A DNA stretch of 64,000 nucleotides from Aquariibacter albus (lineage in GTDB: Bacteria > Pseudomonadota > Gammaproteobacteria > Burkholderiales > Burkholderiaceae_C), in contig NZ_JACIVI010000008.1 in the NCBI RefSeq assembly GCF_014145335.1, positions 29,687-93,686 on the forward strand, read 5' to 3'. Shown here piece by piece: positions 50,619-55,630 of the stretch. A program made the position numbers and the translations under genes. Position 1 is the first letter of the stretch, and every line of letters begins with the position of its first letter. A model generated the notes under the pieces. That model did not search any database. It worked only from the letters and a program-made list of their open reading frames with translations, and was not told the DNA's origin.

Positions 50619-51826
50619 GGATTGCCCTGCTCTCCTACGAATACCCGCCGGAGACCGGCTTCGGCGGCATCGGCAGCTACACCTGGCATCACGCCCGGGG
50701 CCTGGCGGCGCTGGGCCATGAGGTGCATGTGCTGGCCGGCGCCCGCACGCCCCAGCCCTTCACCACCCGCCTGGAGGGCGCGGTGCACGTGCACCGCCAC
50801 TGGGCTGGCGACCGGGTCATGCGGGCCGCCGACCTGCCCGGCCGCTGGGGCTGGTGGTGGACCCGGCAGCGCCTGCAGAACGCCTGGAGCATGGCCCAGG
50901 GCCTGGCCGAGCTGCGCCGCCGCCACCGCATCGACCTGGTCGAGGCGCCGGAGTGCGGCGCCGAAGGGGCCGCCCTGCCACGCGGCCGTGGGGACCCGCC
51001 ACTGCTCTTGCGCCTGCACTCGCCCGCGCAGCTGATCATGCCCTTCTACGACGTGCGGGCCGGCGACCGCTGGGCCTGTGCGCAGGTCGAGCGCCGCGGC
51101 CTGCGCCGGGCCCGGGCCGTGAGCGCCTGCTCGCGCTTCGTGGCCGAGGCCACCGAGGCGGCCATCGCCCTGGGCCGGCCGGCCGAGGTGATGTTCAACG
51201 GCCTGGACCTGGACTGGTTCGATGCCTGCGAGGACGACGACGCCGTGCTGCGCCGCCTGGACCTGCCGCCCGACCGCCCGGTGGTGCTCTTCAGCGGCCG
51301 CCTGGAGCGCCGCAAGGGCGTGGCCCTGCTGGGCGAGATCGCGGCACGCCTGCTGAGCCGCCATGAGGTCAGCCTGGTGCTGGCCGGTGACGATCTCTTC
51401 GGCCACCTGCAGCGCGACATCCTGCCGGCCCTGGCCGGGCGCCGCCTGCGGGGGGGGCTGCACCCGGTGGGCCACCGCTCGATCGCCGAGATCCGGGCCC
51501 TGGTGCGGCGCTGCAGCGCCTTCCTGCTGCCCAGCCTCTGGGAGAACTGTCCCTACGCGGCCCTGGAAGCCATGGCGGCCGGCCGGCCGGTGGTGGCGGC
51601 TCGCCAGGGCGGTATGCCGGAGCTGATCGAGGACGGCGTCGAAGGCTTGCTTGCCACGCCTGGCGATCCGCTGGCCTATGCCGAAGCGCTCGACACCCTG
51701 CTGGGCAACCCGGCCCGTGCGGCGGCCCTCGGCCGCGCGGCGCGCCGCGCCGTCGAGCAGCGCCACGCCCACACCCACACCGCCGCGCAGGCGGTGGCGC
51801 TCTACACGCGCACCTTGGGGGGCTGA
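50615..51826 (+). CDS. Glycosyltransferase family 4
   Basis: The 403-residue GT-B transferase opens with 'RIALLSYEYPPETGFGGIGS' and 'TWHHARGLAALGHEVHVLAG'. It has 'VVLFSGRLERRKGVALLGEI' at the donor domain start and 'LLPSLWENCPYAALEAMAAG' as the E-x7-E-type donor motif. Its N-terminus closely resembles in type that of the GT4 half of the 44594 fusion, so the two may descend from a duplication. It is the last gene of the rightward operon; its final 25 bases overlap the convergent dioxygenase gene. Confidence 0.92.
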   Translation: MRIALLSYEYPPETGFGGIGSYTWHHARGLAALGHEVHVLAGARTPQPFTTRLEGAVHVHRHWAGDRVMRAADLPGRWGWWWTRQRLQNAWSMAQGLAELRRRHRIDLVEAPECGAEGAALPRGRGDPPLLLRLHSPAQLIMPFYDVRAGDRWACAQVERRGLRRARAVSACSRFVAEATEAAIALGRPAEVMFNGLDLDWFDACEDDDAVLRRLDLPPDRPVVLFSGRLERRKGVALLGEIAARLLSRHEVSLVLAGDDLFGHLQRDILPALAGRRLRGGLHPVGHRSIAEIRALVRRCSAFLLPSLWENCPYAALEAMAAGRPVVAARQGGMPELIEDGVEGLLATPGDPLAYAEALDTLLGNPARAAALGRAARRAVEQRHAHTHTAAQAVALYTRTLGG

Positions 51827-52665
51827 GCGGCGTCCAGCGCCTGCGCGGCGATCAGGGCCTGCTGCAGTGCCACCGGCAGCCGCGGCGGCGTGTGCTCCGG
51901 GATCACCTGCAGCAGGCGGGTGCCGGGCGGCAGCGTGGGCCGCAGGTGGGAGAAGTGGGTGTAGAACTCGGTCCCGCTCTCGTAGACGCGCATCTCACGC
52001 TGCGCCGCGTCGTACATGCAGTGCAGGGCCGGTGCCTCGCGCGGCAGGCAGCCCAGGCCGGCCGCCGGCCGGACCTTGTCGCTGCGGTTGGGAGGCGAGG
52101 CGTGCGGGCAGCGCAGGTCGTAGATCAACACCTCGCCGGCCCGCATCGGCACCGGCGTGAGCGCCCCCGGAGCCTCGTAGAGCGCGGGGTCGATCGCAAA
52201 GGGCAGGTTGGTGCCGCGCAACGCCACCGGCAGGCGGTGGCCGCCGCGCAGCATGTGCATCGCACCGTTGTGGACCTCGGTCTCGACCAGGGCGGTCCAG
52301 AGGTTGACGGCGACGAAGCGGGTCTCGTCGGTCATGGTCCAGTCCTGGTGGATTCCCACCGTGCCCGGCGCGTCCGGCCGCGCCGGATGCTTGAAGATGG
52401 CGTTGCCGACGAGGGGCCGGTAGTCCAGCAGGTAGCGTTCGGCCACCGGGCCGAGTGCCTGCAGCACCAGCGCGTGCATGGCCTGCTTGTGGACCGGATC
52501 GGTGTGGAACAAGGTGGGCTCGAAAGCCATGTTCAGCCGGCCGGGCACGGCCTCGATCTGCGCGGTCAGGCGCGCAACGCCTTCGGCGTCCAGCCCGGGC
52601 ACGACCACATAGCCGTCACGCTCGAAGCGAGCCTGCAGCTCGCTGTCCTGGAAAACAGGTCTCAT
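51802..52665 (-). CDS. Phytanoyl-CoA dioxygenase (PhyH)-family Fe(II)/2-oxoglutarate oxygenase
   Basis: The 287-residue protein contains the facial triad His106-x-Asp108 in 'GIHQDWTMTDETR' and His188 in 'YDLRCPHASPPNRSDKVR', with Arg residues following that could bind 2-oxoglutarate. The N-terminus 'FERDGYVVVPGLDAEGVARL' is typical of PhyH proteins. It overlaps wzt by ATGA and is last in the leftward exporter group. Family members hydroxylate lipids, sugars or natural products. Its place beside an ABC glycan exporter suggests modification of the glycan, for example its terminal residue, but this is inference. Confidence 0.86.
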   Translation of the reverse strand: MRPVFQDSELQARFERDGYVVVPGLDAEGVARLTAQIEAVPGRLNMAFEPTLFHTDPVHKQAMHALVLQALGPVAERYLLDYRPLVGNAIFKHPARPDAPGTVGIHQDWTMTDETRFVAVNLWTALVETEVHNGAMHMLRGGHRLPVALRGTNLPFAIDPALYEAPGALTPVPMRAGEVLIYDLRCPHASPPNRSDKVRPAAGLGCLPREAPALHCMYDAAQREMRVYESGTEFYTHFSHLRPTLPPGTRLLQVIPEHTPPRLPVALQQALIAAQALDAAQPPKVRV

Positions 52666-54732: not shown

Positions 54733-54787
54733 GGCAGCCGGGTTCAGCCGCCGCGACGGCGCGCGTGCGGCCTGGTGCGGGCAGGGC

Positions 54788-55630
54788 TCACCCGGGCTTG
54801 CGCACGAGGATCTCGACGGCCGTGATCAGCTCCAGGTAGGAGATCTCCGGCGACCAGCTCTTGCCCATGCGCTGCTCGAAGTTCAGCCAGGGCTCGAACA
54901 CGGCCTCGTAGGCCGGCTCGCGCACGTAGTGCAGCTTGAAGCCGGGTTCGAGCACCACGTCCACCAGGCTCGCAAGGTCCGGCATGACGAGCTGGTAGAC
55001 CTCGTTGAGCTTGCGCATGTCGGCCGCGTGCTGCTCGGCCAGCTCCGGGCGGGTGCGGAAATCCTGGCCGTAGAAGTCCTTGATGTAGAGCAGGCCGCCC
55101 GGCTTGAGCACCTGCCAGGCCTGGTGCAGCACGGCGCGGTAGTCCTGCGCGTGGCAGATCGATTCCAGGAAGAGCACGCGGTCGAAGCTGTTCTCGGCAT
55201 ACAGGTCGGTCAGGCGGTGGAAGTCGCCGACCCGCACCGAGACCTTGTCCGGCAGGCCCTGGGCGGCCACGCGTTTGCGGCCGGCCTGCACCTGCACTTC
55301 GGAGAGCGTCAGGGCCTCGACCGTCACGTCGCAGTGCCGTGCCAGCCAGGTGGCCGGGCCGCAGACGCCGCAGCCGGCATCCAGCACGCGCAGACCGCCA
55401 TGCAGGCGGGCGCCGTCGGCGATGTGGCGCATCAGGTCCTCGGTCGAGGCCGGCCGGCTGCCCTGGAAGATTTCGCCGAAGCCGTCGAGGTAGGCCTGGG
55501 TGTTCTCGTCGTAATACGTCCGGACGCCCGCGGTGTAGTGGCCTTCGACGGCCTGACGGGCGTCGCGGACCGGAGGCGGGGTCGTGCCGCTGCCGGGCGA
55601 CGCCTGGGCGCTGGGGGGGATGACGCTCAT
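54788..55630 (-). CDS. Class I SAM-dependent methyltransferase beside the ABC exporter
   Basis: The 280-residue methyltransferase has motif I 'VLDAGCGVCGPATWLARHC', 'EALTLSEVQVQAGRKRVAA', 'VRVGDFHRLTDLYAENSFDR' and 'QVLKPGGLLYIKDF', the arrangement of small-molecule methyltransferases related to cyclopropane-fatty-acid-synthase-like enzymes. In ABC-exported O-antigens a terminal methyl group can stop chain growth and mark the chain for Wzt, which makes that role attractive here. It precedes wzm by 55 bp. Confidence 0.85.
   Translation of the reverse strand: MSVIPPSAQASPGSGTTPPPVRDARQAVEGHYTAGVRTYYDENTQAYLDGFGEIFQGSRPASTEDLMRHIADGARLHGGLRVLDAGCGVCGPATWLARHCDVTVEALTLSEVQVQAGRKRVAAQGLPDKVSVRVGDFHRLTDLYAENSFDRVLFLESICHAQDYRAVLHQAWQVLKPGGLLYIKDFYGQDFRTRPELAEQHAADMRKLNEVYQLVMPDLASLVDVVLEPGFKLHYVREPAYEAVFEPWLNFEQRMGKSWSPEISYLELITAVEILVRKPG

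Follow-up and report, generated by a model that had tools for sequence, protein, structure and literature searches.

The 64,000-nucleotide stretch of Aquariibacter albus DNA analysed here (the window; contig NZ_JACIVI010000008.1, positions 29,687 to 93,686) carries a minus-strand row of four genes, at 51802-55630, in which the two halves of an ATP-binding cassette (ABC) glycan exporter, Wzm and Wzt, stand between a methyltransferase and a predicted Fe(II)/2-oxoglutarate oxygenase of the PhyH family. Open reading frames and Pfam matches place, in order and all on the minus strand, an S-adenosylmethionine (SAM)-dependent methyltransferase as the first gene of the operon (54788..55630; Methyltransf_11, 63.9 bits, above cut-off), the ABC-2 permease Wzm (53905..54732; PF01061 ABC2_membrane, 57.9 bits, above cut-off), the ATPase Wzt (52662..53903) and PhyH (51802..52665; PF05721, 83.0 bits against a cut-off of 22). 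Permease and ATPase are present as a pair, and Wzt consists of an ABC_tran nucleotide-binding part (residues 1-236, 53196..53903; PF00005, 76.0 bits, above cut-off) with a C-terminal extension, in which residues 263-405 (52689..53117) form a predicted glycan-binding domain that matches Wzt_C at 19.7 bits, below the cut-off of 30.4. Read directly from the sequence, a single base pair separates the wzm stop from the wzt ATG, and an ATGA is common to the wzt stop and the PhyH start. The first-pass annotation of this DNA had described the four genes, an intact HxD...H triad in PhyH and both of these junctions, and all of them stand. The composition of the PhyH gene matches that of its neighbours (GC 0.711; GC at third codon positions, GC3, 0.924), and its 3' end reaches 25 bp into a convergent GT4 gene (50615-51826).

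The metal triad of PhyH (H106, D108, H188) and the 2-oxoglutarate-binding R199 are all present, with the codons from H106 to R199 lying at 52069..52350, and the motif aligns with that of EvdO2. Across a 23-row alignment (A1), H106, H188 and R199 are invariant and D108 is replaced by Asn in three rows. Structures were predicted for PhyH and for Wzt over its whole length, and in a fold search the PhyH model passes as a member of the oxygenase superfamily, with SnoN and SnoK on top and EvdMO1, EvdO2, AviO1 and HygX lower; by sequence the best solved relatives are EvdO2 (E 7.9e-9) and SnoN. AviO1, EvdO1/2 and HygX are, in the excerpts consulted of PMC8234114, oxygenases of oligosaccharide antibiotics and of hygromycin B. 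The orthosomycin enzymes EvdO2, AviO1 and EvdMO1 and the nogalamycin enzymes SnoN and SnoK resemble the PhyH of the window in metal motif, sequence and fold, but they belong to antibiotic biosynthesis with no cell-surface exporter, and their identity to it is only about 20-25%. EvdMO1 (6ec3) is named as a methyltransferase-domain protein and aligns as an oxygenase, which pairs both activities in that protein. In the protein collection searched, one PhyH copy is 88% identical to that of the window, and the family numbers 607 proteins at E 1e-20 (of 7,997 scored). Its top-ranked members are mostly about 600 residues long, a length fitting two PhyH domains, and the names seen among the 120 relatives listed go no further than 'phytanoyl-CoA dioxygenase family protein', 'ectoine hydroxylase-related dioxygenase' and 'hypothetical protein'. 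One protein, P0063 (579 aa), is 47% identical over 96% of the PhyH of the window and, at about double its length, is probably a tandem PhyH.

The same type of PhyH accompanies Wzm/Wzt in another phylum. A single-sequence locus search returned one relative (locus L001, from the Bacteroidetes metagenome-assembled genome G334), and a profile search of the class to which that genome belongs returned the rest, so that at E 1e-30 this PhyH type was found in 22 of 272 genomes of one Bacteroidota class, the seed G334 included. Counting genes no more than 5 kb from such a PhyH, 18 of the 22 genomes have Wzm, 19 have Wzt and 21 have one or both; without the seed, Wzm or Wzt lies within 5 kb in 20/21. 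Relatives of the methyltransferase and of a UbiA-type prenyltransferase are found within the same distance in 10/22 and 8/22 genomes, respectively, and 103 of the 135 PhyH reading frames in the 22 genomes have Wzm or Wzt no more than 10 kb away. By rough arithmetic, a random gene would fall within 5 kb of a strong Wzt in fewer than 1% of cases (from G334, with three such places in 4.5 Mb). These counts carry some qualifications: the 22 genomes are not independent (G1157/G1198 and G1194/G1229/G1312, for example, have largely the same locus), the eight rows that alignment A1 takes from the L001 cluster make the class search lean to that type, at most eight candidates were scored per genome, stretches were fetched from all 22 at selected PhyH places, and distances are those between stop-to-stop reading frames, with a few of the 135 cut or counted twice at stretch edges. 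Judged from gene neighbourhoods, this PhyH type is genuinely linked to Wzm/Wzt in more than a single genome.

G334 itself illustrates the arrangement. At L001 eight PhyH domains in seven genes surround a Wzm, and a methyltransferase (35% identical to that of the window) and a UbiA protein (31%) adjoin each other. A second, separate group on another contig reads Wzt, B12-radical-SAM enzyme, PhyH, Wzm; 15 of the 16 PhyH matches of this genome fall either between 40 and 102 kb on the first contig or next to that second Wzm, and a third Wzm-Wzt pair is without PhyH. The closest parallel to the window is G1248, where Wzm, Wzt, PhyH, methyltransferase, PhyH and UbiA stand in one row, the UbiA scoring below its Pfam cut-off. 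At L001 (7-12 kb) and at the loci of G1157, G1198, G1202, G1233, G1262, G1285 and G1384, the order of PhyH genes after wzm seems to be shared, and tandem double-PhyH proteins seem to occupy matching positions, which would suit a separate step for each gene.

Fusions tie these proteins together more closely. Single open frames in G1325 and G1348 join PhyH, at the N-terminus, to the Wzt ATPase part and a Wzt_C-like end (28.3 and 32.9 bits, respectively, against the cut-off of 30.4), and single open frames in G1189 and G1377 join PhyH to a methyltransferase. Within each fusion kind the two members are closest to each other in the tree, compatible with a single origin per kind. In the tree, exporter-type PhyH proteins, that of the window included, make up a 30-row branch (support 100/99) apart from 19 PhyH rows of other loci, and the window's type is on this basis a distinct branch found in uncultured Bacteroidota. 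Within it the window PhyH groups with P0002-P0005, P0007, P0008 and P0014, outside any Bacteroidota group, and a recent transfer out of one of the known Bacteroidota loci is therefore not supported. A census of 158 PhyH domains found the motif HxD...H...R in 138 and HxN in 15, with 5 cut, and the 15 HxN domains form one branch (support 99, FastTree). Eleven of the 13 Bacteroidota HxN proteins are encoded directly after wzm, as the first gene on the same strand, with gaps of -23 to 226 bp (L001, L141, L147, L150, L153, L154, L156, L158, L164, L166 and L169, one per genome); the other two are 4.5 and 31 kb from wzm. The A. albus genome and that of its sister species, G001, each have a second PhyH of the exporter type, an unlinked member of the HxN branch (L050:8901-9848, on contig C9, and L049:9255-10205, respectively), with no Wzm or Wzt nearby and with a C-terminal tail that looks amphipathic by eye.

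What, then, might an oxygenase be doing in an export operon? I consider it probable that, before export by Wzm/Wzt, PhyH and the methyltransferase tailor the cargo by oxidising or otherwise changing one of its sugars at the cytoplasmic face of the membrane. The predicted oxygenase would oxidise a sugar of the cargo there in partnership with the operon's methyltransferase, and Wzm/Wzt would then move the oxidised cargo out. The substrate would be a lipid-linked glycan, the chemistry either the hydroxylation of a sugar or its oxidative ring closure, perhaps at a methylated position or beside one, and PhyH would act at the transporter. The link to exporter and methyltransferase comes from neighbourhoods and fusions in Bacteroidota and is held at the present locus by gene overlap. 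Also in favour are the similarity to oxygenases of oligosaccharide antibiotics and the presence of glycosyltransferase genes and lptA next to the operon. For this genus, the basic export mark more probably comes from the conserved methyltransferase, with PhyH adding a change specific to one species; either product may be what the Wzt C-terminal domain reads.

Several observations weigh against this proposal. Within the phylum of A. albus, no PhyH (E 1e-12) was found within 10 kb of any of 36 Wzt_C places (E 1e-8; 200 genomes, the window's own Wzt excluded), the nearest being one at 23 kb, in a comparison in which positions were intersected by eye and neighbours may be missed where contigs are fragmented. 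PhyH is likewise absent from 20 Wzm loci (from the 24 best matches outside the own genome in 300 genomes of its order, with four on short contigs omitted and some of the 20 near contig ends), and neither Wzm nor Wzt, at the thresholds used, occurs at 14 loci of other PhyH proteins, so a generic PhyH-Wzt adjacency in this phylum is rejected. Scarcity of PhyH beside wzt in relatives is what the first-pass annotation had said would speak against it, and for PhyH in general that scarcity is found; the co-occurrence it asked about holds for this particular PhyH type in Bacteroidota (21/22) but not for PhyH at large in the own phylum (0/36). G001, the only other species of the genus compared, is syntenic with the window from UbiA through the rpoN-like gene (identities: UbiA 76%, FAD protein 96%, epimerase 84%, the four genes between 74-83%, Wzt 64%, Wzm 72%, methyltransferase 89%, LptA 93%, LptB 92%, RpoN 96%), yet inspection of its sequence reveals no PhyH at this locus and no remnant of one, with 26 bp between the GT4 stop and the Wzt stop. 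Exporter and methyltransferase thus exist there without PhyH, which makes PhyH dispensable for the exporter as such, and at this locus PhyH is, from this comparison, accessory. Among the 22 Bacteroidota genomes, G761 is the sole exception in having a PhyH pair with no exporter nearby, and the Wzt of G1248 lacks a Wzt_C match at E 1e-3. The fold search also finds many natural-product oxygenases that do not act on sugars (OkaE, FtmOx1, AndA, SptF), so the fold leaves the substrate of PhyH unsettled, and the G334 loci also contain a fatty-acid desaturase, KAS III and B12-radical-SAM enzymes, because of which the cargo there could be a glycolipid.

A C-terminal domain of Wzt unrelated to glycan-binding Wzt domains would, in the first-pass annotation, have counted against its reading. 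A profile of 18 Wzt proteins (the window's first) aligns with the cap-binding Wzt of Aquifex across both domains. A relative 52% identical across the C-terminal stretch does carry Wzt_C, and the Wzt model aligns with Aquifex Wzt over its full length, at a predicted template-modelling score (pTM) of 0.58 with which the domain arrangement is unreliable. The Aquifex methyl-cap pocket is not kept. At the seven A. aeolicus residues compared, taken from the excerpts consulted of PMC9445017 (Ile299, Leu300, Asn313, Thr346, Ala348, His350, Trp362), only Leu300 is conserved, the others being replaced by Leu (Ile299), Leu (Asn313), Asp (Thr346), Gly (Ala348), Leu (His350) and Gly (Trp362), a comparison that bears on the Aquifex 3-O-methyl ligand and not on the exporter class. 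The cap-stacking Trp362 is Trp in G001 and in the Wzt protein P0032; Gly replaces it in the window and in P0031, a protein 98% identical to the window's Wzt.

This bears on the reading put forward in the first-pass annotation, that the product of PhyH, alone or after methylation, marks the chain end, halting its growth, and is recognised by the Wzt C-terminal domain. Fusions of PhyH to Wzt and to the methyltransferase elsewhere recall the layout of WbdD, and the Trp-to-Gly change in the PhyH-bearing Wzt, with five of the seven pocket sites differing between the window and G001, also speaks for this reading; as a signature tied to PhyH this change is a hint, no more. The five differences lie within the domain background (P 0.19), which led me to reject a pocket signature linked to PhyH, and P0032 enters the comparison as a protein sequence only. 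Nor is faster divergence of the C-terminal domain linked to PhyH seen, since the identities of C-terminal domain and ATPase part are 52% and 74% between the window and G001 and 61% and 84% between G001 and P0032, similar ratios that leave no extra divergence to explain. Because G001 has the locus without PhyH, and because up to 14 PhyH frames of this type per Bacteroidota genome suit cargo tailoring as well as, or rather than, a single cap, I regard a PhyH-made chain-end mark as possible though rather doubtful, while noting that its weight overlaps with that of the tailoring proposal, of which it is one form. The first-pass claim is partly supported: the tie between this kind of oxygenase and the exporter is borne out by neighbourhoods, fusions and the alignment of Wzt with its Aquifex counterpart, whereas the terminal mark meets counter-evidence. 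The methyltransferase, present and conserved at 89% in G001, is a candidate for the chain-terminating enzyme of the locus.

It is also conceivable, though in my view unlikely, that the cargo is a glycolipid or polyprenyl-linked sugar, with PhyH, methyltransferase and UbiA modifying a lipid or lipid-linked pentose that Wzm/Wzt exports. The UbiA relatives near PhyH in Bacteroidota, one of them fused to a GT4 (G1157, L157:6498-8777), fit this reading, as do the desaturase, KAS III and B12-radical-SAM genes near L001, L096 and L097 and a precedent from Citrobacter, where a polyprenyl phosphoribose synthase is described in the excerpts consulted as having a part in pentofuranose addition (PMC11127046). 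However, the UbiA-type gene of the window (39167..40261, plus strand; PF01040, 55.5 bits) is 11.5 kb from the operon on the opposite strand, glycosyltransferases adjoin the operon, and the Wzt C-terminal domain is of the glycan-binding type. I rejected the assignment of this UbiA protein as a polyprenyl-phosphoribose synthase, as it has no solved-chain match at E 1 and finds only weak, generic prenyltransferase and chlorophyll-synthase models far below cut-off. That PhyH is a mere chance neighbour after wzt with no export role would agree with its absence from the syntenic G001 locus and with the rarity of its type in the phylum (at E 1e-25, a profile search found it in one of 398 genomes, namely the own genome, G001 being outside the sample), but seems very unlikely in view of the ATGA overlap, the native composition, the existence of the 88% identical copy, and the linkage of the same type to Wzm/Wzt and methyltransferase, fusions included, in another phylum.

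Several known systems come close to this one. The exporters of Aquifex aeolicus and of E. coli O8/O9a resemble the window in having Wzm, a Wzt with a C-terminal domain and an operon methyltransferase, but they make a terminal methyl or methyl-phosphate cap without an oxygenase, which the window adds, and Trp362 and His350 of the Aquifex pocket have become Gly and Leu. WbdD of E. coli O9a, as described in the excerpts consulted, combines a kinase and a methyltransferase and sets O9a chain length with no oxygenase; its fused chain-end enzymes are matched by the PhyH-methyltransferase fusions of Bacteroidota. Excerpts of PMC9445017 name the marks by which a glycan is admitted to ABC export: methylation, (methyl-)phosphorylation and a special sugar, Kdo being an example. 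The first-pass annotation knew of no characterised export system with a dioxygenase in such a role, and nothing in the partial literature consulted contradicts this, although one uncharacterised case exists. In the lipopolysaccharide (LPS) cluster of Xanthomonas citri 306, XAC3597 (PhyH superfamily) lies beside rfbC, wzt and wzm (PMC3130047, PMC2238763, in excerpt), the only instance of PhyH beside wzt in the portions of literature searched. The related cluster of X. oryzae BXO8 is described there as having no XAC3597 homologue (PMC2238763, in excerpt), much as PhyH is missing from G001, and a transposon mutant of XAC3597 came from a screen for defective biofilm and swam less (PMC3130047, in excerpt). 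XAC3597 is a loose, biochemically uncharacterised precedent, likened to the PhyH of the window, as far as these excerpts go, by superfamily name and gene context only.

Wzm/Wzt export with methyltransferase caps is known; what appears new here is the oxygenase as a probable added part of ABC-transporter-dependent glycan export. If the proposal is true, an exporter-tied oxygenase would add new chemistry to the marks of ABC export and open a direct experimental route to what is recognised by Wzt C-terminal domains. The fusions of PhyH with Wzt hint at the site of the reaction, two sister species, one with PhyH and one lacking it at this locus, offer a ready-made comparison for glycan analysis, and the large PhyH family gains a function-linked context. 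More speculatively, Bacteroidota might possess a widespread, undescribed form of surface-glycan export, of which this genus would have a small version, in which banks of PhyH and a methyltransferase docked on Wzm/Wzt would oxidise the cargo (for example to orthoester or methylenedioxy bridges) and thereby license export, with the Asp-to-Asn PhyH encoded after wzm acting as a cargo reader or altered catalyst; I hold this broader picture to be a doubtful one.

The surroundings of the operon are as follows. On its right lie lptA (by Pfam) and then, read by eye, lptB and rpoN. On its left, Pfam matches identify glycosyltransferases, an epimerase, an FAD amine-oxidase-like protein and the UbiA protein. 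The glycosyltransferase-region genes (44594..51826, plus strand) are convergent with the operon and comprise a GT4-GT2 protein, a protein without Pfam match and two GT4 proteins, three of the four having Pfam matches. Elsewhere in the A. albus genome, a second Wzm-Wzt pair is found at G000:C1:197100-197792 (L132), whose Wzt frame of only 241 codons leaves no room for a C-terminal domain. Finally, an XRE-type regulator with a peptidase-like half (61765-62835 of the window) and a convergent PIN-like protein (62848-63342) look by eye like a toxin-antitoxin or stress pair.

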